A stretch of DNA of 25,663 nucleotides. It comes from Candidatus Altarchaeota archaeon. Lineage in GTDB: Archaea; SpSt-1190. The translations under genes and the position numbers were made by a program. Shown here in pieces: positions 1,092 to 14,302 of the stretch (positions are counted from its first letter, which is position 1; every line of letters starts with the position of its first letter). The DNA lies in NCBI GenBank assembly GCA_030590165.1, contig JAUUZA010000009.1, positions 1 through 25,663 of the forward strand. The letters are read 5' to 3'. The notes beneath the pieces are model-generated. The model was not told where the DNA came from. It saw only the letters and a list, made by a program, of their open reading frames with translations, and did not search any database.

Positions 1092-1781
1092 GTGATTGAA
1101 ATAAAGGATTTGAATGTGTTTATTGGAGATAAACCAATTTTAGAAGAAATAAATTTAAATGTAAATGCCGGTGAAATTGTTGCTTTAATAGGTCCTAATG
1201 GTTCTGGAAAAACTACGCTTTCCAAGGCAATTATGGGTGATACGCGTCTTAAAATAAGAGGAACCATGCTCTTTGAAGGTAATTCATTAAATAAACTTTC
1301 AATTGATGAGCGTGCAAAAAAAGGAATTTTTTTAAGTTTTCAGAGTCCTCCCGAAATTGAAGGTGTTAATTCAGAATATTTTCTTAATTTAATTGGTGAA
1401 GATGCAGACAGAGTGGCTCTTTTTGAAAAACTTAAACTCAAAGATAAATTATTATCTAAAGATTTGAATCAAGGTTTTTCGGGTGGCGAACGAAAAAAAT
1501 TTGAGTTATTGCAAATTTTACTCATGAATCCAAAATTTTTGATTTTGGATGAAATTGATTCTGGATTAGATGTTGATTCTCTAAAATATATTGAAGATTT
1601 ATTGAAAACGGCTAAATTAAAAAAGAAAGGAATTCTTGTTGTTACACATTATAATAGGATTTTTTCTAAAATTAAACCAGATAAGGTTTATGTAATGATT
1701 AAAGGTAAAATTGTAAAGAAGGGCGGGGCTGAACTCTTAGATCAACTTGAAGAAGAAGGTTTTGAAAAATGGTCAAAGTGA
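1092..1781 (+). CDS. sufC: Fe-S cluster assembly ATPase SufC
   Basis: Cytosolic ABC-type ATPase that powers the SufBCD scaffold during Fe-S cluster assembly. The 229-residue length is slightly under the usual 245-260. It has Walker A GPNGSGKTT (34-42), a Q-loop in SFQSPPEIEG with the SufC-typical PPEI context, signature FSGGE (129-133), Walker B ending D153-E154, a D-loop SGLD, and switch His186 in VVTHY. There is no membrane segment, as expected for SufC rather than a transporter. The start is GTG at 1092. It is first in a tightly packed operon and overlaps sufB by 13 bp. Confidence 0.95.
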   Translation: MIEIKDLNVFIGDKPILEEINLNVNAGEIVALIGPNGSGKTTLSKAIMGDTRLKIRGTMLFEGNSLNKLSIDERAKKGIFLSFQSPPEIEGVNSEYFLNLIGEDADRVALFEKLKLKDKLLSKDLNQGFSGGERKKFELLQILLMNPKFLILDEIDSGLDVDSLKYIEDLLKTAKLKKKGILVVTHYNRIFSKIKPDKVYVMIKGKIVKKGGAELLDQLEEEGFEKWSK

Positions 1782-3175
1782 ATACCCCACTTTTAGATGA
1801 GAGAGAAAAAAAACTTTGGTTCAAATCTAAAGAAAGAAGTGAATTTCAAATTAAAGGCCCTTTAACAAAAGAAAAAGTAATTCAACTTTCGAATTTTAAA
1901 AAAGAGCCAATTTGGTTGAAAGAATTTAGACTTAAAGGATTTGAAATTTTTGAGAAAAGTCATTTACCTTCTTTTGGTCCAAAATTGAATTGGCTTAATT
2001 TTGAGGATTTGGTTTATTATTCAAAACCCTCAAAAAAAACTGAAAAATGGGAAGAGTTACCTTCTGATATGCGTGAAACTTTTGAAAAGTTAGGGCTTAG
2101 TGACAAAATGAAAAATATTTCAGGTCTTGGACTTCAGTATGATTCTGAAATTATTTTCGAAAAAGCCAAGAAGATGCTTGAAGAAAAAGGAATAGTTTAT
2201 ATGAGTATGGATGAAGCAATACTTAAACATCCTGAACTTGTTAAAAAATATTTTGGAACTATTGTTTCTTCTAATGATAATAAGTTTTCAGCTTTAAATT
2301 CAGCAGTTTGGAGTGGTGGAACCTTCATTTATGTACCTAAAAACATTAAAGTTCCTTTTCCCTTACATACTTATTTTAGAATTAATATGGAAGGCTTTGG
2401 TCAATTTGAAAGAACTTTAATTATTGTTGATGAGGGTTCTGAAGTTACTTATGTTGAAGGTTGTACTGCACCTCTTCATTCCAAGTCAACATTACATGCG
2501 GCTGTTGTTGAACTTATTGCACTAAAAAATTCTAAAGTTAAATACATTACACTTCAGAATTGGAGTAAAAATGTTTTAAATATTGGAACAAAGCGAGCTT
2601 TTGCGAAAGAAAATTCTTTTGTTCAATGGATTGATGGAAATTTTGGAAGTGGAGTTACAATGAAATATCCTGGAATTTATCTTCAAGGGAAAAAAGCCAG
2701 AGGTGAAGTTATTAGTATTGCTTTTGTATCTTCAAATCAAAATATCGATTCAGGTGCAAGAATGATTCACTTGGCACCAGAAACTACATCTAATATTATT
2801 TCAAAAACAGTTTCAAGCGGAAAGGGGGTTTCAACTTTTCGTGGAACACTTAAGATTTTTGAAAGTGCAGATGATGTGACTGCAAAGATTCAATGTGATT
2901 CACTTCTTCTCAATGATTCTATTGCTAATGCAATTCCAAATATTTTAATTCATAATAAAACAGCAAGTGTGAATCATGAGGCTAAAACTTCAAATATTGA
3001 TGATGAAAAATTAATGTATCTTATGTCTCGTGGGGTTGATAGGACTTCGGCCGAGAGTATGATTGCTTTTGGGTTTATTAGAGATTTTGTAAGAGAACTT
3101 CCTATGGAGTATGCTTTGGAATTACAGCGCTTGATTGATATTGATATGGGGGGTCACGAAAATGCAGAAAATTAA
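1769..3175 (+). CDS. sufB: Fe-S cluster assembly scaffold SufB
   Basis: Scaffold subunit of SufBCD, on which new Fe-S clusters are built. At 468 residues it is of normal family length. The C-terminal beta-helix region has GVSTFRGTLKI, QCDSLL with C376 aligning with the essential E. coli SufB Cys405, NHEAKTS with E404 near the position of E. coli Glu434, and the terminal DFVRELPMEYALELQRLI helix. The family-typical SAVWSGGTFIYVPK and VEGCTAP segments are also present. The ATG at 1769 lies inside the end of sufC, a translational-coupling arrangement. The last 14 bp overlap the preferred start of sufD. Confidence 0.95.
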   Translation: MVKVNTPLLDEREKKLWFKSKERSEFQIKGPLTKEKVIQLSNFKKEPIWLKEFRLKGFEIFEKSHLPSFGPKLNWLNFEDLVYYSKPSKKTEKWEELPSDMRETFEKLGLSDKMKNISGLGLQYDSEIIFEKAKKMLEEKGIVYMSMDEAILKHPELVKKYFGTIVSSNDNKFSALNSAVWSGGTFIYVPKNIKVPFPLHTYFRINMEGFGQFERTLIIVDEGSEVTYVEGCTAPLHSKSTLHAAVVELIALKNSKVKYITLQNWSKNVLNIGTKRAFAKENSFVQWIDGNFGSGVTMKYPGIYLQGKKARGEVISIAFVSSNQNIDSGARMIHLAPETTSNIISKTVSSGKGVSTFRGTLKIFESADDVTAKIQCDSLLLNDSIANAIPNILIHNKTASVNHEAKTSNIDDEKLMYLMSRGVDRTSAESMIAFGFIRDFVRELPMEYALELQRLIDIDMGGHENAEN

Positions 3176-3872
3176 GAGATTTAGGGGAAGCCCCGCACAA
3201 GATTATTTTTCTGGATTTAATTCAGTTAAGAAATTTGAACCAACTTCGTCTTTTATAAATAAAAATATTCTTTATACTGGGAGTTTTAGTGGTAAATTAA
3301 TTACTAAAGTTAAAGATTCCTCTTTTGGTTTTCATGGGCAAGCAAAAGGAGAACTCAATTTTTGTTTTGAGGGAAAATGTATTGTGAAACGTTTTTTTAG
3401 GATACCCCCAAATGAAACTTTAAAACTTACTTATCTTTCAAATGATTCTGACTCTATAATTGAAGATTATGTGTATATGTCTGAAAATTCAAAACTAGAT
3501 TATGTCGGGAAATTTGTTTGTGAAAAAAATAAATTTAAAAATTTCGTTAAAATAATTCACGAAGAGCCAAACGCAAAAAGTGAAGTAAATATAAAAGGGA
3601 TAGTCTCGTCGAAGGTGGATATAATTACATCAGCAGAAGTTCTTGAAGGTTCGAAAGGCTCCAAAGTTTCTTTGAATTCAATTGTTTTTTTATTTGATGA
3701 AGGAAGAGTTAATGCACTTCCTGAACTTAATGTAGAAACTCCCTTTTCAAGAGTAAGTCATAGTTTTAGGAAAATAAAATTTACCCCAGAACAATTATTT
3801 TATCTTGAATCGAGAAAGGTTAAAATGGATGATATTAAAAACTTTCAAAAAAAGACGTTATTGGGTGTTTGA
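3162..3872 (+). CDS. sufD: SufD-like Fe-S assembly subunit (short form)
   Basis: Paralogue of SufB that normally forms the SufB-SufD-SufC2 complex. I chose ATG 3162 because a G-rich Shine-Dalgarno-like stretch (GGGGGGTC, 3148-3155) precedes it; the upstream in-frame ATG at 3135 would lengthen the sufB overlap. The resulting 236 residues are short for SufD (often 300-430), so the N-terminal helical part seems trimmed. The C-terminal signature survives: PELNVETPFSRVSHS followed by FTPEQLFYLESR. H200 in VSHS aligns with the functional His360 of E. coli SufD. The stop TGA is followed directly by the sufS ATG. Identification rests on that C-terminal motif and on operon position. Confidence 0.85.
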   Translation: MQKIKRFRGSPAQDYFSGFNSVKKFEPTSSFINKNILYTGSFSGKLITKVKDSSFGFHGQAKGELNFCFEGKCIVKRFFRIPPNETLKLTYLSNDSDSIIEDYVYMSENSKLDYVGKFVCEKNKFKNFVKIIHEEPNAKSEVNIKGIVSSKVDIITSAEVLEGSKGSKVSLNSIVFLFDEGRVNALPELNVETPFSRVSHSFRKIKFTPEQLFYLESRKVKMDDIKNFQKKTLLGV

Positions 3873-5033
3873 ATGGATGTAAGGAAGGATTTTCCAATAT
3901 TGAAAAGAGGAATTTATTTTGATAATTCTGCTACCTCGCACAAACCAAAACAAGTTTTAGCTGCCGTCTTTAATTATTACAATAATCATAATGCAAATAT
4001 TCATAGGGGGATTCATAGATTGAGTGAAGAATCAAGTGAAAGGTATGAAGACAGTAAGAAAACTTTATCAAAATTTATTGGGGCAAAAGACTGGAAACGC
4101 ATTGTTTATGTTAAAAATGCAACTGAAGGGTTGAATTTAGCATCACACCTTCTTAATCTTTCAAAAAAAGATAAGGTAGTAATAACCTCAATGGAACACC
4201 ATTCAAATATTTTACCGTGGAGAGTGAATTCACAAGTTTCTGTTGTTGATATTTCTTCTGAAGGTGTAATTGATATTGAGGACTTTAAGTCTAAAATTAA
4301 AGGTGCAAAAGTTGTTTCAATGCCACATGCTTCAAATGTTCTTGGAACAATTAATGAAGTTGAATTATTAACGAAAATGGCGCATGAAGAAGGCGCTAAA
4401 GTTGTAATTGACGCGGCTCAATCTGCACCTCATTTAAAAGTTGATGTGAATAAAATTGGGGCTGATTTTTTAGCAATTTCAGGACATAAGATGTTAGCCC
4501 CTGGGGGGACTGGATTATTGTATGTTAGTAAGGAATTTTCCGAAAGCACACCCTTTATGTTGGGTGGTGGAACAGTTTTTGATGTTACTAATCAAAAAAT
4601 AGAGTGGGCAGATATGCCTGAACGTTTTGAAGGTGGAACTCCTAATATTGGTGGTGCAATTGGTTTTGCAAGAGCAGCTGAATATTTGATGGAAATTGGA
4701 ATGGATAATGTTAGAAAACATGAAGTGTCTCTTCTAAAAAACTTCTTTAAACTTAATGAAGAAAAGTTGGTTGAGATTTATGGTCCTCATTCACTCAAAC
4801 TTAGGACTGGGCTGGTAAGCTTTAATCTTCCTGGAGTTCACTCTCATGATGTTGCTGACTTTTTGAATGCAAGAAATATTTTTATTCGTAGTGGTAAACA
4901 TTGTGCGCACCCCCTTCATGAAAGATTATGTATTCCTTCTTCTGCCAGGGCAAGTTTTTATATTTATAATACCCTTTCAGAAGTTGAAAACTTATTTGAA
5001 GTTCTAAATGAAATCAAAGAGGTATTTTCATGA
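3873..5033 (+). CDS. sufS: Cysteine desulfurase SufS
   Basis: PLP-dependent group II cysteine desulfurase that removes sulfur from L-cysteine to supply Fe-S assembly. The 386 residues include YFDNSATSHKP at the N terminus, the EHHSN stretch whose His109/His110 sit near the PLP ring, SGHKM with PLP lysine K206, an APGGTGLLYV strand, and the active-site loop RSGKHCAHP with catalytic C344. The family usually has GHHCAQP there, so this is a slight variant. The C-terminal SFYIYNT is typical of SufS. The ORF begins immediately after sufD and its TGA overlaps the ATG of sufU by 4 bp. SufS alone is slow, and the adjacent SufU is its expected sulfur acceptor. Confidence 0.95.
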   Translation: MDVRKDFPILKRGIYFDNSATSHKPKQVLAAVFNYYNNHNANIHRGIHRLSEESSERYEDSKKTLSKFIGAKDWKRIVYVKNATEGLNLASHLLNLSKKDKVVITSMEHHSNILPWRVNSQVSVVDISSEGVIDIEDFKSKIKGAKVVSMPHASNVLGTINEVELLTKMAHEEGAKVVIDAAQSAPHLKVDVNKIGADFLAISGHKMLAPGGTGLLYVSKEFSESTPFMLGGGTVFDVTNQKIEWADMPERFEGGTPNIGGAIGFARAAEYLMEIGMDNVRKHEVSLLKNFFKLNEEKLVEIYGPHSLKLRTGLVSFNLPGVHSHDVADFLNARNIFIRSGKHCAHPLHERLCIPSSARASFYIYNTLSEVENLFEVLNEIKEVFS

Positions 5034-5383
5034 ATTTGAATAAACTTCTTCTCATTTATAAAAAAGCAAAGTCTGAAATGGAAGAAAGAACGCACAACAA
5101 AAAAATAGAAGGTAAAAATATTAGTTGCGGTGACGAAGTTACCCTTTTTTTGAAAATTGAAGAGGGAATATTGAAAGACATCTCATTTGAAAGTTCTGGA
5201 TGTGCTGTTAGTATTTCTTCCGCTTTTCTTTTAGCTAAACAATTGAAAGGAAAATCAATTGAAGAAGTTAAACAGCTTTCAAATGAAGAATATTTAAAAC
5301 TCATAGACATGGAGGAAATTAGTACTTCTCGTAGAAAATGTGTTCTAACACCTTTTATTACATTAAGAAACAATTTAGATTAA
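5030..5383 (+). CDS. sufU: SufU-type sulfur acceptor / IscU-like protein
   Basis: A 117-residue IscU-fold protein that takes persulfide sulfur from SufS in SufU-containing systems. The three conserved cysteines and the metal-binding aspartate are visible: C33 and D35 in ISCGDE, C58 in SGCAVSISSA, and C104 in RRKC. The N-terminal helix is typical of the fold. The IscU-type LPPVK loop is absent, which favours SufU over IscU. It is the last gene of the operon and starts on an ATGA overlap with sufS. Only 28 bp separate it from prs, which has its own TATA-like element. Confidence 0.88.
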   Translation: MNLNKLLLIYKKAKSEMEERTHNKKIEGKNISCGDEVTLFLKIEEGILKDISFESSGCAVSISSAFLLAKQLKGKSIEEVKQLSNEEYLKLIDMEEISTSRRKCVLTPFITLRNNLD

Positions 5384-8443: not shown

Positions 8444-9178
8444 ATGCCAAAAAAGGATTTAATAGAAACAGGTATACTTCATTTGGCCATAGTTCCAGAC
8501 GGTAATAGAAGATATGCAAAGAAAAGAGGACTGCCAGAAAAATTTGGTCATTATCAAGGCATTAAAAATGCCAAGAAAATTGTAAAGTTTATTTTTAATA
8601 AAACTGACATAAAATATTTGACTATGTATGGATTTTCAAAATATAATTTCAATAGGGATGAAGAAGAAAAATCAAATCTTTTTTATAAATTAGCTGAAAT
8701 TGTGGAGAAGGGGAGTGAATGGATTCCTGATGATGTGGGTCTTATTCCTGCTGGGGACCTTTCAAAGTTTGAACAATACAAAATTATAGATTCAAAAGAA
8801 GGAGAACCATCAAATTTGAAACAATTATTTGAAAGCGTTTCAAAAATAAGTAAGTCAGATAGATATTTTACTGTTTTAATTGGGTATGATGGTATTGACG
8901 AAATTGAACTTGGTGTGGAGAAATTACTTGAAGCCCAAAAAGCAGGAGAAAAGATTTCAGGTAAAGACATCCAAAAATATACATATACTTCATTTTTACC
9001 GCCAGTCGATTTAATGATAAGAACTGGAAATGAACAAAGAATTTCAGGATTTATGCCATATTTAATATCTTATGCTGAATTACATTTTGATAAGAAGATG
9101 TGGCCTGCTTTTGGAGTAAATCGCTTGAGTAAAATTATTAAAAAATATAGTAAGAGACAAAGGCGTTTTGGTAAATGA
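8444..9178 (+). CDS. uppS: cis-Prenyltransferase (undecaprenyl/polyprenyl diphosphate synthase family)
   Basis: Condenses isopentenyl diphosphate into long cis-polyprenyl diphosphates, the precursors of the lipid carrier for archaeal glycan assembly. The 244 residues include the catalytic-Asp motif VPDGNRRYA (D19), GHYQGIKNAKKI, the YGFSKYNFNRDEEE segment corresponding to the family's TFSxxNxxR, and the C-terminal DLMIRTGNEQRISGFMPY followed by SYAELHF, where the Arg and Glu bind the diphosphate. The variant DGNRR (bacterial enzymes have DGNGRW) is seen in archaeal members. The gene converges on the GPT-family transferase with a 4-bp gap, and the two probably act in one pathway. Confidence 0.92.
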   Translation: MPKKDLIETGILHLAIVPDGNRRYAKKRGLPEKFGHYQGIKNAKKIVKFIFNKTDIKYLTMYGFSKYNFNRDEEEKSNLFYKLAEIVEKGSEWIPDDVGLIPAGDLSKFEQYKIIDSKEGEPSNLKQLFESVSKISKSDRYFTVLIGYDGIDEIELGVEKLLEAQKAGEKISGKDIQKYTYTSFLPPVDLMIRTGNEQRISGFMPYLISYAELHFDKKMWPAFGVNRLSKIIKKYSKRQRRFGK

Positions 9179-9182
9179 GATA

Positions 9183-10151
9183 TTAAACGAACCAAACAAG
9201 TATTGAGAAAAATGCTGAGATTGCCCAAGTGAATTGGACTATTTGTTTTTCAGTAAAATTTCCATTCATAAAGATGTGGGGGAGTGAATAGATTCCATCC
9301 TGTCTGTGAATTTTCCCATTTTTTAAAATTCCTATTGTTGGTTTTTTGAATCTTCCTCGAAGTTTTAGTAAACCTTCAATGATAAAGGGTATTGAGATAA
9401 TGATGGCTGCTTTTTCTACATTTCCAACTATGGCAATTGTTGCAAGTGTCGCACCTAAGAAATATGTAATACTGTCTCCTGGTAAAAATTTAGAGGGAAA
9501 TTTATTAAATAAGAAAAATCCAGATATTGCTCCAAGGGCACCAAATGCAATTATTTTTGCTGCTAAATTTGAATAAAAATAAGTGTAGAGGCTTAGGGAG
9601 GTAAGATAAATTATTGCCATGCCAGATTCAAGACCATTGAAACCACCCAAAAGATTTACCATATTTGAAGCGCCCATAAAGGCAATTGGAATTATAAAAA
9701 GCGGATAGATAAAACTTAGATTAATATTTCCAATAAAAGGAAGCATCATTTTTGGCGTTCCAAGTCTTAGTGCCATTAAAGGAAGCGCCGCCCAAATTGT
9801 CATTAATGGTTTTTGCCATTGCTTCAGTCCTGTTCTTTTTCCTTCTGCTGAATTTACATCATCAAGGAAACCCACAAAGGTTACAAGCGCAATTGAAAGT
9901 ATGCTTGCCAGAATTTCTAATAAGAAATTAAATTCACCATAAATATATGTCCTTAAAAAAATGTAAAGCATCGCAGCGACATAGAATCCAAAAAAAACTG
10001 GGATTCCTCCGCTAGTTGGTAATTTAGGCTTGTTTTTCTTATGTACATCTAAACCAACGAGTCCTGCCTTTTTAAAATAAGATTTGAGCCAATTTGACAA
10101 TAAAAAACTTGAAACGAAGGCTATTATCATTTCAACTATGAAAGTCTCCAC
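9183..10151 (-). CDS. GPT/MraY-family sugar-1-phosphate transferase (AglH/DPAGT1-like)
   Basis: Polytopic membrane enzyme of 322 residues that moves a sugar-1-phosphate, typically GlcNAc-1-P, from a UDP-sugar to a polyprenyl phosphate as the first step of lipid-linked glycan assembly. Family motifs are VHKKNKPKLPTSGG (about 36-49), the Mg-binding DD97-98 in GFLDDV, NMVNLLGGFNGLESG, and LPGDSITYFLGA. About ten hydrophobic segments surround them. The FNGLESG and IHRQDGI segments look closer to the archaeal/eukaryotic GPT group than to MraY, fitting an N-glycosylation or surface-polymer role. The start is GTG at 10151 with ATTTATAAAT centred 24.5 bp upstream. The sugar specificity is unknown. 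Confidence 0.88.
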   Translation of the reverse strand: METFIVEMIIAFVSSFLLSNWLKSYFKKAGLVGLDVHKKNKPKLPTSGGIPVFFGFYVAAMLYIFLRTYIYGEFNFLLEILASILSIALVTFVGFLDDVNSAEGKRTGLKQWQKPLMTIWAALPLMALRLGTPKMMLPFIGNINLSFIYPLFIIPIAFMGASNMVNLLGGFNGLESGMAIIYLTSLSLYTYFYSNLAAKIIAFGALGAISGFFLFNKFPSKFLPGDSITYFLGATLATIAIVGNVEKAAIIISIPFIIEGLLKLRGRFKKPTIGILKNGKIHRQDGIYSLPHIFMNGNFTEKQIVQFTWAISAFFSILVWFV

Positions 10152-10264: not shown

Positions 10265-12202
10265 GTGGCAGATAAGAGAAAACCGACAGTAGGTTCTACA
10301 GTTGCGCCTCCGAGTGAGAAGGCTGACTTTTTGAGTCAATTACAGAATACTTTTGAGCGTGGTGTTGTCAGTGCTGAAGTTGACATTGGGGGATTGCTTA
10401 ATCAACAACAAGGAGCTGGAGGAAGTGTTAAAACCTTGTTTGGAGAGGCCGTAAGAACTACAACGGGTCCACAAGGAGTATCAGATAGTTTAATTAGCAA
10501 AATGAAAAATATTGCTAGTGTTTATAATGGGCAATTTAGAACTCATGCACCGATGCAAGCTAATCCAGCAGGATTAACTGAGATAGGAAGGACACAAGCT
10601 GCTCTTTTGCTTAAAAAAAGTTTGGATTATACTACTAAGCTTGATGGAAAACATATGACCGTTCATCCAATTGGTCAAATGAGTTATTATTTTGTTGAAC
10701 CCTTTGTTGGAATGCCTTTTCAAGTTAGTAATCCTTTTATGCTTTCTAAAAATAAAGAAGAACTTACAAATTTAATGAATGAGTTTGGAGTTAAAGACCC
10801 AGTGTTAAAAGATCAAATTGAGAGTGAATGGAGAAATTTTGTAAGAGTACTTCCTTTGAATTTTGCAGAAAAATATGGTGCAGTAGCTATTCAAGAAGTT
10901 CAAAAATTTAAAGGTGAACTTGGTGCGTGTAGGGCAGGAAAATTGATGGAGAAATATGAAAATAATCCAGAAGGACTATTAAAAAGAACTCAAGAACTTG
11001 AACACAAATTAGACCCACAAGTTTTTCAAGCTATGATGAACAATTTAGATTCCGCTAAAAACCCAAGTGACAAAAAACAATTAATAGACATGATAGATTT
11101 TCATAAAGAACGTGCAAATGAAGGTTGGAAAAAAGCTGCACTTGCAATGTTAGACCCAATGACTCGTGATGGAGAAATTGTTTCTGCTTCAAATGAATTA
11201 AGAAAACTTTATAATAAAAAAAATAAAAGCGGGAGTGAAGAGAATAGGCTTAATCAACTTTTAAAGGAACATCGCGATAAGATTGATAAAATAAGGTTTG
11301 ACGCTTGGGGAAGCGTAATGGAGTCAGGTAGATTTGGTCCATTTAAAGATTCACAAGAAACGACCATGAAGCATGTTGTTGATACTTTTGATAGGATTTT
11401 CAAAGGAATAGTGCAAGAAAAAGGTGCAACATATAAACGTCTTAAGGCAAAAAAAATGACCATAGGTTTGGAAAATCTTTTTCCGATGGTACCTGAAAAA
11501 GGGTATATGCAAGGATTTGCTCACTTTTACAAACCAGAACATATGATTGAATTAATAAAAAAAGTGAAAGCAAAAGCAAAGGTCAATGGGCTTCCTGAAG
11601 ATGTTGTTACAATTACATTTGATATCGGTCATGCTGCAGCAAGTGGAATAAAACCGAGTGACTTCTTAAAAAAATTAAAGAAAGGCGGAATTGACCCAAA
11701 ATATATTCACTTAGTTGGTGGTCCGGGATATGGTCATGGTCATATTGCTTGGGGTGATTGGCTTGATGAAGTTAGTAAAATGGACCCAGGAATTTTAACT
11801 AAATTAATGGATGTTGGTGCAATTAATATTGAAGGTGGACAAGGTTTGTATGATACTGAAGTTACTCTTAATACTATGTGGAATGATGGTTTGCCTATGG
11901 AAGCTATGATGGCAATGGCAGGTGGACCAGAAAATTTTTCTCCACAATTTATAGACAGGGCAGGTTATGCTTCTAGACCAAATGAGCAAATGGCTAGAGG
12001 TTATTTTGGGACTCAAATGCCTGTTCGTTCTTTCTATTCATTCCAAAACGAAACGTCACTTCAACCGATGAAGGGCGCCTTTGGGAGTTATTCTATGCCA
12101 GGTAGGTATGCAGGAGGATATACAATAGGTCCGAGCCGAACCTCAAATGTTTGGGCAAGTTCGCAACCATTATTGTATTCATCAAAACGAGGAAAGGATT
12201 AG
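10265..12202 (+). CDS. Large endonuclease IV-like TIM-barrel metalloprotein with big insertion
   Basis: A 645-residue protein from GTG 10265; ATG 10214 would add 17 residues. It resembles endonuclease IV and xylose-isomerase-like TIM barrels. Most Nfo metal-ligand positions occur in order: H94 (RTHAP), H134 (VHPIG), E403 (GLEN), D453 and H456 (FDIGHA), H482 (IHLVG), H493 (HGHIAWG) and E523 (INIEGG). H491 stands where Nfo has the Asp of DRH. Between H134 and E403 lies a charged, helix-rich insertion; the corresponding gap in E. coli Nfo is 36 residues. A Gly/Met/Tyr/Ser/Arg-rich tail of about 65 residues follows the barrel. It heads an operon with two nucleotidyltransferases. Function could be AP-site or other phosphoester cleavage, or sugar isomerisation; I cannot decide which. 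Confidence 0.72.
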   Translation: MADKRKPTVGSTVAPPSEKADFLSQLQNTFERGVVSAEVDIGGLLNQQQGAGGSVKTLFGEAVRTTTGPQGVSDSLISKMKNIASVYNGQFRTHAPMQANPAGLTEIGRTQAALLLKKSLDYTTKLDGKHMTVHPIGQMSYYFVEPFVGMPFQVSNPFMLSKNKEELTNLMNEFGVKDPVLKDQIESEWRNFVRVLPLNFAEKYGAVAIQEVQKFKGELGACRAGKLMEKYENNPEGLLKRTQELEHKLDPQVFQAMMNNLDSAKNPSDKKQLIDMIDFHKERANEGWKKAALAMLDPMTRDGEIVSASNELRKLYNKKNKSGSEENRLNQLLKEHRDKIDKIRFDAWGSVMESGRFGPFKDSQETTMKHVVDTFDRIFKGIVQEKGATYKRLKAKKMTIGLENLFPMVPEKGYMQGFAHFYKPEHMIELIKKVKAKAKVNGLPEDVVTITFDIGHAAASGIKPSDFLKKLKKGGIDPKYIHLVGGPGYGHGHIAWGDWLDEVSKMDPGILTKLMDVGAINIEGGQGLYDTEVTLNTMWNDGLPMEAMMAMAGGPENFSPQFIDRAGYASRPNEQMARGYFGTQMPVRSFYSFQNETSLQPMKGAFGSYSMPGRYAGGYTIGPSRTSNVWASSQPLLYSSKRGKD

Positions 12203-12210
12203 GTGTTAAA

Positions 12211-13044
12211 ATGAGTATGAGAAAAAAAGAAGAAGTATTAACAGACATTCAAAAAACAAAAATGAGGATGGAAGAAGTTGATAAGGTTTATGACTTTACT
12301 TCAACTGTAGTTAAAAAATTTGGAACTTTCATTAAGGCAGTTGCAGTATTTGGTTCATTTGCTAAAAAGACAGAAAGTGAATCAAGTGATGTTGATGTTG
12401 TTGTGATTGTGGATGATTCCTTTGGTCCAATGGATAAGGCACTTTATATTGCCTTTCAGTCTGAAATGAATTCATTAACAAAATTATATCCAAAATTACA
12501 TTTGAATACTGTAAGTATAAGTCAGTTCTGGGATTCGGTAAGGAGGGGAGACCCACTTGCAATTCAAATGCTTAGGGATGGGGTGGCGTTATATGACTTA
12601 GGTTTTTTTGTACCACTAAAAAGACTGTTGATTCAAGGAAAGATTCGTCCAACGACTGAAGCAGTGAATGCAGCATTAAGTCGTGCATTTTTTAATGCGA
12701 ATAATTATACTAATGTTTTGCTTAGTGGGGTTCACACTCTTTATTGGGCGACTGTTGAGGCGGCACATGCAGGTGTTATGAAATATGGAAAAATTTCTGG
12801 TTCTCCCTATGAAATGGCAGATTTGTTAAAAGAAACTTTACTAAAAGATAAAATAATTACAGTTGAAGATGTCAAAATATATGAAAGAATATTTTCAATG
12901 GAAAAAGAAATTGAGAAAGGCGAATTAACATATATTGAAGCAGAAAAATTAGAAGAAGTTCATAAAGCGGTAATTAAATTTGTAACAAAAATTGATGCTT
13001 GGATAAATATGGAAGGTATAAAAAAGACTTTAGGAGATAAGTAA
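12211..13044 (+). CDS. Nucleotidyltransferase-fold protein 1
   Basis: A 277-residue protein. I chose ATG 12211 because GGTG at 12202-12205 lies 5 bp upstream; a frame starting at 12151 would run far into the preceding gene. The polymerase-beta-type core has an exact GSx10DxD motif: G48, S49, D60, D62. The position expected for the third catalytic acid (LHLNTVSI) carries N99. A helical C-terminal region of about 150 residues (PLKRLLIQGKIRPTTEAVNAAL onward) aligns by eye with the next gene and resembles the helical substrate-binding or HEPN-like domains often joined to such cores. No Rx4-6H HEPN nuclease motif is evident. The substrate is unknown. Confidence 0.75.
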   Translation: MSMRKKEEVLTDIQKTKMRMEEVDKVYDFTSTVVKKFGTFIKAVAVFGSFAKKTESESSDVDVVVIVDDSFGPMDKALYIAFQSEMNSLTKLYPKLHLNTVSISQFWDSVRRGDPLAIQMLRDGVALYDLGFFVPLKRLLIQGKIRPTTEAVNAALSRAFFNANNYTNVLLSGVHTLYWATVEAAHAGVMKYGKISGSPYEMADLLKETLLKDKIITVEDVKIYERIFSMEKEIEKGELTYIEAEKLEEVHKAVIKFVTKIDAWINMEGIKKTLGDK

Positions 13045-13045
13045 T

Positions 13046-14302
13046 ATGCCTAAAAAAGCTTCAATTAGACCTGTTAAGCAGGAAAAAACTAAACTTAAAA
13101 AAATAAATAAAAAAGATAATAAAGAAGAAAAAGCAACATCAAAAACCTTTGAAAAAGCAAAGAAGAGGCGTCAAGTTTTTCTGAGAGCAAAAGTTAAGGC
13201 AGCAGAACGATTTTCAGCTGTTGCTCGTCAAAAACTTGGCAATATGGTTAAAAGTGTAGTTTTAATTGGGAGCTTAGCAAGAAATGATTTCAAACCCGGT
13301 TCGGATATTGATATGCTTGTGATTCTTGATGATACGCAACGAGACGTTCCAGATGAATTGAAGGAAAAACTTTTAGCAATGCTTAATGACCTTGGTAAAA
13401 AAATTGATAAAAAAATGCAAGTTCAGATTCATACAATTACTGAAATGTTTCAGTTTGCGAAAGAGGGCGACAATATTATTTACAATTTTCTCAGACACTC
13501 AAAATTAATTTATGATGGTGGTATTATGAAGCCACTTAAGAATTTGCTTAAAGCAGGTGAAATTAAACCGACGAAGGAATCAGTAATGCGTTCCATGGAA
13601 GGGGCAGATTTTTATATGAAAAAAGTGAATCAATACATTGAATGGATTTTAGAAAGATATTATCGTTCAATAACTTGGGCAGGAAATGCATTCATTATGT
13701 CAATGGATGGTCAACCAGCTTCAGTTCCTGAACTTCCAATTGTTTTGAAAGCACATGCGGATAAGGGAGTCATACCTCAAGAAGTACCTTTAATTGCTGC
13801 TGAAGTGATTAAACTTTTCAAGTCAGTTGAGCACGAAGAAAGTAAGGCAACAATGGAAATAATTTACAAACTTCATCCAAAGGTAATAAAATATCTTGAC
13901 GCTCTTAGAAAAGATGTAATTGGTTCAATTGTTGAAGATAGTTTGAAAGGTACAATGAAAGCTAAGATTAAAACAATGCCAAAAATGATATTTGAATTTA
14001 CTAAGGGACGTGCCTTTGTTTGGCTTTTAGGTGACGGAGTTTATGTTGCAAATTATGAGAATGATAAACTTAGTAAGGTTTACAAATCAAAAGTTGAAGG
14101 AGGGAAGGTTGCTAGTTTTAAAAGTATTAAAAGTGAAAAACTTTTCCAAGCAATGGAAGCCAGTGATTTGAAGCCACTAATTAATATTGACCTTTTGAAA
14201 ATGATATATGCTGCATTGCCCACTGGTGTTAAGAAACCTTTGAAAAAAATTGCAATTGAATATCCTGGGCGTGCAATGATAGACTTGGGTAAAATAATTT
14301 AG
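13046..14302 (+). CDS. Nucleotidyltransferase-fold protein 2 (paralogue)
   Basis: A 418-residue paralogue of the preceding gene, starting 2 bp after its stop with an AGGAGAT motif 7 bp upstream of the ATG. A very lysine-rich N-terminal tail (1-50) precedes the core, which has an exact GSx10DxD motif: G75, S76, D87, D89. The expected third acidic position (VQIHTI) is Q127. The helical domain begins with PLKNLLKAGEIKPT, parallel to the neighbour's PLKRLLIQGKIRPT. An extra C-terminal domain of about 120 residues (FEFTKGRAFVWLLGDGVYVA to the end) is absent from the neighbour and I do not recognise it. The two proteins may work as a heteromeric pair with the TIM-barrel protein. Confidence 0.72.
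   Translation: MPKKASIRPVKQEKTKLKKINKKDNKEEKATSKTFEKAKKRRQVFLRAKVKAAERFSAVARQKLGNMVKSVVLIGSLARNDFKPGSDIDMLVILDDTQRDVPDELKEKLLAMLNDLGKKIDKKMQVQIHTITEMFQFAKEGDNIIYNFLRHSKLIYDGGIMKPLKNLLKAGEIKPTKESVMRSMEGADFYMKKVNQYIEWILERYYRSITWAGNAFIMSMDGQPASVPELPIVLKAHADKGVIPQEVPLIAAEVIKLFKSVEHEESKATMEIIYKLHPKVIKYLDALRKDVIGSIVEDSLKGTMKAKIKTMPKMIFEFTKGRAFVWLLGDGVYVANYENDKLSKVYKSKVEGGKVASFKSIKSEKLFQAMEASDLKPLINIDLLKMIYAALPTGVKKPLKKIAIEYPGRAMIDLGKII

Follow-up and report, generated by a model that had tools for sequence, protein, structure and literature searches.

What an endonuclease IV-like barrel does when its metal site is interrupted by a very large insertion is the question raised by positions 10265–12202 of a 25 663-nucleotide stretch of DNA from a Candidatus Altarchaeota archaeon (contig JAUUZA010000009.1; the whole stretch is referred to here as the window). 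An earlier note, made from the letters of this DNA, had proposed such a barrel with a near-complete set of metal ligands, an added helical domain, a Gly/Met/Tyr/Arg-rich tail and a substrate that may differ from AP sites. Here, the fold, active site, distribution and gene partners of the encoded protein are examined in turn.

Results

The reading frame and its surroundings

The interval is an open reading frame on the forward strand encoding 645 amino acids, in which the nine residues named earlier are all found at the positions given for them. GTG at 10265 is the favoured start, homologues beginning MADK or MAER at the same point, and a longer frame from ATG 10214, produced by a mechanical ORF call, finds no support among the homologues. 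The host assembly (G000) is archaeal, 724 kb in size and 88% complete, and Candidatus Altiarchaeota records are among the named relatives, at 48–54% identity. Two nucleotidyltransferase genes follow, one starting 8 nt past the barrel stop and the other 1 nt past the end of the first. The features are as follows, with the evidence for each in parentheses.

10265..12202, +, large xylose-isomerase-like TIM-barrel protein as predicted, 645 aa, GTG start (translation, homologues, fold)
10265..10711, +, N-terminal barrel half, residues 1–149, with H94 and H134, equivalent to Nfo H69 and H109 (profile alignment to MJ1311 and endonuclease 4 chains, invariance)
10712..11452, +, predicted helical insertion, residues 150–396 (AlphaFold2; no PDB match by Foldseek or VIA)
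11453..11917, +, C-terminal barrel half, residues 397–551, with E403, D453, H456, H482, H493 and E523 (Pfam AP_endonuc_2, MJ1311 alignment, invariance)
11918..12199, +, predicted disordered Ser/Gly/Tyr/Arg/Pro-rich tail, residues 552–645 (pLDDT <50, motif conservation, composition)
12211..13044, +, nucleotidyltransferase 1, 277 aa, GSx10DxD at residue 48 (Pfam NTP_transf_2, motif, synteny)
13046..14302, +, nucleotidyltransferase 2, 418 aa, GSx10DxD at residue 75 (Pfam NTP_transf_2, alignment, motif)

Divergent from the barrel gene, window positions 9183–10151 (−) encode a MraY/WecA-like GT4 glycosyltransferase, with the same synteny in several genomes of the same family; an UppS gene (8444–9178) adjoins it. 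A SUF cluster occupies 1092–5383 (SufC-like ATPase, SufB, SufD-like protein, SufS-type cysteine desulfurase and SufU-like scaffold).

Fold of the barrel

An AlphaFold2 model of the 645-aa protein, built with nine homologues, has an overall pLDDT of 76, the barrel and insertion being mostly confident and residues 46–71 and 552–645 falling below 50. Its first Foldseek match is MJ1311 of Methanocaldococcus jannaschii (3wqo, D-tagatose 3-epimerase-like), and VIA-align gave one Z score, 24.0, for both MJ1311 (3wqo_A; rmsd 3.0 over 262 of 271 residues) and the T. maritima endonuclease IV 2x7v, followed by 4hno (23.9), D-tagatose 3-epimerase (23.5) and xylose isomerase (23.1). As these scores are tied, the structural comparison assigns the protein to the superfamily but not to a branch within it. 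The endonuclease IV-like barrel proposed earlier is thus recovered in the predicted model, although Nfo, which shares the fold, is not the nearest reference by sequence: in profile searches MJ1311 leads (E 4.7e-14) and endonuclease 4 comes second (E 4e-4), making MJ1311 the top sequence match and joint-top structural match. Against Pfam PF01261 (AP_endonuc_2) the window protein scores 28.9 bits (E 1.2e-6), below the gathering cut-off of 31.1, and its relatives L082, L085 and L096 exceed that cut-off with 65.3, 50.5 and 62.0 bits. By model and by sequence, then, the window protein is predicted with confidence to be a complete xylose-isomerase-like TIM barrel.

The HAP, HP, TFDIGHA, H and DEH motifs of MJ1311 align with those of the window barrel, whereas MJ1311, a 293-residue chain, has neither helical insertion nor tail. 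With endonuclease IV (Nfo; 2x7v, 4hno) the barrel shares the fold and the order of eight of nine metal ligands, and its H94–H134 and H493–E523 spacings, 40 and 30 residues, match those of E. coli Nfo (H69–H109 and H231–E261). It differs from Nfo in that the Asp229 equivalent is unconserved, the gap from the ligand H134 to E403 is 269 rather than 36 residues, a disordered tail is present and the nfo model is not matched. CbiR, a cobamide-remodelling phosphodiesterase (NF041277) that represents a phosphodiesterase branch of the same superfamily, gives a weak local match (E 0.029; 13.9 bits against a cut-off of 105) and has no insertion. We know of no nucleotidyltransferase partners for CbiR.

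Metal site

The metal ligands of E. coli Nfo are H69, H109, E145, D179, H182, H216, D229, H231 and E261, which we take to correspond to H94, H134, E403, D453, H456, H482, position 491, H493 and E523 of the window barrel. Eight of these nine residues are invariant in all nine Altiarchaeota homologues, position 491 being H, E or F there. When 61 diverse large-barrel homologues were gathered and aligned for column conservation, twelve columns reached at least 80% identity, and because these are solely H94, H134, E403, D453, H456, H482, H493, E523 and four Gly, the ligand pattern is not due to chance. All eight ligands are retained in 51 of the 61 sequences, seven in 7 and four in three, and at position 491, 29 sequences have H, 13 have D and 8 have T, the remainder being varied; six aligned barrels of one group have Asp in the Endo IV/MJ1311-like DxH arrangement or a near variant. 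The ligand order put forward in the earlier note therefore stands, exact in position and near-invariant, as does the placing of H491 at the Nfo Asp229 position, where the residue varies among homologues. The three barrels with four ligands (L136, L137 and L141, from G026, G126 and G230) have Glu in the H94 column and are possibly pseudoenzymes or cases of alignment failure.

Taken with the model, the alignments lead us to infer that the eight predicted ligands form one common metal site. Much of the same metal site is common to sugar isomerases, and the Glu-Asp-His-Glu quartet of epimerase type is present in the family (E403 in 98%, D453 in 100%, H482 in 95% and E523 in 89% of the 61 sequences). 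The extra histidines of the second and third conserved strands, of the H94 and H134 type, are a feature of Endo IV-type sites and are dispensable in single-metal epimerases. Retention of both, in register with Nfo H69 and H109, argues for a predicted multi-metal rather than single-metal site.

Helical insertion and C-terminal tail

The gap between H134 and E403, 269 residues in the window barrel, ranges from 190 to 504 across the 61 homologues, with a median of 301. The 247-residue insertion is confidently modelled as helical (block pLDDT about 80–97 over residues 160–400 of the full model), and residues 150–396 folded alone gave a mean pLDDT of 86. Compared with the PDB, this segment had no informative match by Foldseek (best E 0.93), and with VIA the highest Z was 5.0, for an F-BAR helix pair, which we read as uninformative rather than as proving that the fold is new. 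The predicted helical insertion between the H134 and E403 strands is a family-wide feature, and the large helical domain earlier expected between barrel strands 3 and 4 is borne out in the AlphaFold2 model and by the length of the gap.

The tail proposed earlier is present and is rich in Gly, Tyr and Arg, but the claimed Met enrichment was not found (4.3% against 4.7% in the rest of the protein); the tail is better described as Ser/Gly/Tyr/Arg/Pro-rich, with Tyr at 7.4% compared with 2.4% elsewhere. Its conserved motifs are YSF, GG and W...QPLLYS, and Tyr591 and Tyr638 are invariant or near-invariant in the nine Altiarchaeota homologues. The column of W630 is aromatic in 60 of the 61 barrels (W 45, F 11, Y 4, gap 1) and lies 13–19 residues from the C-terminus in Altiarchaeota and 7 in other families; in 40 of the 61, Trp is the last aromatic residue, exactly 7 from the C-terminus, with Phe or Tyr taking that place in several of the rest. 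A conserved aromatic residue so placed suggests a docking peptide. GYYSAMDR-like motifs were also seen, at the N-terminus in one barrel group and close to the C-terminal end in the barrel of genome G007.

Distribution of the family and its gene partners

Profile searches were run on 394 archaeal genomes. With the Altiarchaeota barrel profile, 9 of the 10 genomes of that phylum yield a barrel, the tenth being 72% complete, and there are few direct matches outside it. The profile of the downstream nucleotidyltransferase has matches in 91 of the 394 genomes, and the neighbourhoods of these matches contain large barrels in which a long interruption again separates the His of the third strand from the Glu of the fourth. 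Compared profile against profile, the two barrel sets match over the first half (probability 97.8%, E 1e-12). As a joint alignment of two non-Altiarchaeota groups (A6) proved faulty over the C-terminal half, the groups were aligned separately, as A7 and A8, and their profiles find barrels in 21 and 56 genomes respectively. The large barrel is thus present in 86 of the 394 genomes, in 45 family-level groups (42 outside Altiarchaeota and three within). The window barrel is thus no lone case: the earlier note missed that its family is spread widely through small-genome archaea and is tied to nucleotidyltransferases and a helical protein.

The nucleotidyltransferase is found in 83 of the 86 barrel genomes, and 300 genomes have neither. 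Since the presence pattern is clustered by lineage, a Fisher value calculated from these counts does not give a fair probability; such co-occurrence alone is weak evidence and gene clustering is stronger: the two genes lie at most 4 kb apart in 50 of 77 non-Altiarchaeota genomes, from 26 families. Unlinked genes in a 1 Mb genome would by our estimate be that close in a few per cent of cases. Within Altiarchaeota, one family (f1) always has barrel, nucleotidyltransferase 1 and nucleotidyltransferase 2 in that order, and in another (f3) the series is interrupted by an opposite-strand gene. The G007 barrel has no flanking nucleotidyltransferase, which counts against the module. A 714-aa coiled-coil protein (L045 8224–10368) follows it in their place.

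A third partner, a helical protein of about 500 aa, adjoins the barrel in many genomes. Of 56 barrel genomes tested with its profile, 55 have a match, as does G024; there is none in 19 genomes lacking barrel and nucleotidyltransferase alike, nor in four with a nucleotidyltransferase match only. The helical gene lies at most 4 kb from the barrel in 32 of 46 genomes, from 27 families. In the window genome it is on another contig (C40: L104 6315–7922, 535 aa, E 7.7e-16), which also counts against the module. At that locus (L104 4898–9172) it has short pilin-like membrane proteins on one side and, on the other, a DUF373 gene; the latter side is conserved in other Altiarchaeota. Elsewhere, translation and tRNA genes flank the module (L082 1690–2708 and 7033–7593: a stand-alone NFACT-R RNA-binding protein, a small CRM-like protein and TYW3), and in G202 an ordinary 265-aa PF01261 barrel comes right after the second nucleotidyltransferase (L092 8369–9166).

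Both downstream proteins of the window carry NTP_transf_2 and GSx10DxD, and the motif residues G48, S49, D60 and D62 are conserved at 97% among 39 nucleotidyltransferases; nucleotidyltransferase 1 also shows a weak match to MntA. Nucleotidyltransferase 2 (13046–14302) has an extra C-terminal region with a conserved EYPGRAMIDL/EYPNRALIDL end motif. The GSx10DxD motif is common to the HepT/MntA type VII toxin–antitoxin system, where that of MntA adenylylates a tyrosine of HepT (PMC7641770). The RX4HXY motif of HEPN toxins was found in 0 of 39 nucleotidyltransferases, 0 of 8 helical proteins and 1 of 61 barrels. Unlike HepT/MntA, the present module has no RX4HXY toxin, its partner is a metallo-barrel and it is conserved across the lineage rather than patchy. 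Two other identities were rejected: a phage or mobile origin, as phage records held no relatives and a pattern scan of viral contigs, with two alignments, gave none either, and a defence system, as PADLOC has no match for the barrel or helical protein and the nucleotidyltransferases match generic MNT models only.

Discussion

Our leading reading, to which we give a little less than an even chance, is that the barrel is the metalloenzyme subunit of a three-component module, together with an MNT-type nucleotidyltransferase and the helical protein of about 500 aa, and acts as a metal-dependent phosphoesterase working with the nucleotidyltransferase. The barrel would bind two or three divalent metals and cleave a phosphoester in a substrate that contains a nucleotide; this substrate would be made or modified by the nucleotidyltransferase, which would place an NMP on a protein, an RNA end or a small molecule; the helical insertion may cap the barrel mouth and set substrate access, and the tail with its aromatic motif may dock the barrel to a partner. 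A multi-metal phosphoesterase is favoured on two grounds: the two histidines that single-metal epimerases lack are near-invariant, and the superfamily includes phosphodiesterases acting on small nucleotides, such as CbiR, itself a weak match only. The coupling to nucleotide transfer we infer from the gene association. The barrels L136, L137 and L141, with four of eight ligands, speak against this reading: they may mean that catalysis is dispensable in some places, or may be poorly aligned.

That the barrel is instead a sugar or sugar-phosphate isomerase or epimerase, whose product the nucleotidyltransferases use, seems unlikely. D-tagatose 3-epimerase (Z 23.5) and xylose isomerase (Z 23.1) are among its top PDB relatives and the quartet E403-D453-H482-E523 is complete; the near-invariant H94 and H134, however, belong, from what is known of the family, to a multi-metal site of Endo IV type, and MNT-type enzymes do not belong to the sugar-1-phosphate nucleotidyltransferases. 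Regulated protein AMPylation is improbable too, with the MNT enzymes adenylylating tyrosines of the tail or a partner, as MntA does on HepT, and the barrel serving as target or eraser. The conserved motif is that by which MntA modifies a tyrosine (PMC7641770), nucleotidyltransferase 1 weakly resembles MntA and the window tail is tyrosine-rich with Tyr591 and Tyr638 kept, but many third-group barrels end in W/F-KKEELR with no tyrosine, and a HepT-type RX4HXY partner is nearly absent (0 of 39 nucleotidyltransferases, 1 of 61 barrels).

Ranking below this is a divergent AP endonuclease or 3′ repair phosphodiesterase acting on DNA, for which we see a slim chance. Such an enzyme would explain the Endo IV-like ligands and fold, and genomes G000, G002, G004, G005 and G006 have no further PF01261 barrel. 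Against it, TIGR00587 (nfo, cut-off 129.65 bits) has no match in G000 at E 1e-5, G000 and four other same-family genomes have an ExoIII-type Exo_endo_phos protein (8.9e-27 in G000), G013 and G027 encode a genuine Nfo, above the cut-off, plus the large barrel, and the insertion replaces one loop around the active-site mouth. The lack of an nfo match, the ExoIII-type protein and the coexistence of Nfo with the barrel make a plain AP endonuclease unlikely, so that the earlier suggestion of a substrate other than AP sites is favoured, as judged from gene content. Least probable of all is a scaffold for a filament or cell-surface assembly, with a metal site for stability only: the length of both the helical insertion and the helical partner, the disordered tails and the three barrels with degenerate ligands would suit it, but metal ligands that are nearly the sole conserved residues across 61 very divergent sequences are the mark of a catalytic site.

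Returning to the phosphoesterase module, the barrel and its partners look like part of a conserved cellular machine: small-genome archaea keep few genes, and the retention of three linked families in 45 family-level groups suggests that they serve a core process. From a search on the barrel, the trio, NEQ050/NEQ484 and MJ1311, one paper alone was relevant, which describes two DPANN-specific, widespread and unexplained families in a house-keeping context, cls.004259 (NEQ050), an MNT fused to HEPN, and cls.004340 (NEQ484), an alpha-helical protein, and calls for their characterisation (PMC6393860). Compared by description only, these fit the nucleotidyltransferase and helical partner; that paper neither mentions the barrel nor links the two families (PMC6393860). 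A term search found no mention of the barrel or of the trio association in PMC6393860, PMC8204110 or PMC9258230, and no report of either was found in the main texts of the open-access papers covered.

Given their small genomes and the fit to the published description, the hosts outside Altiarchaeota are probably DPANN archaea. Membership of Altiarchaeota in DPANN has been called unresolved (PMC8204110), and a shared module bears on it. The boldest proposal, which we regard as doubtful, is a core machine of DPANN archaea and Altiarchaeota that has gone unrecognised, an essential three-part complex of trinuclear metallo-barrel, MNT nucleotidyltransferase and helical scaffold that would carry out a nucleotide-transfer or removal reaction unknown in other archaea and would be a shared derived character tying Altiarchaeota to DPANN. 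The addition of a metalloenzyme with a readable active site to two orphan-like DPANN partners makes the function of the module testable.
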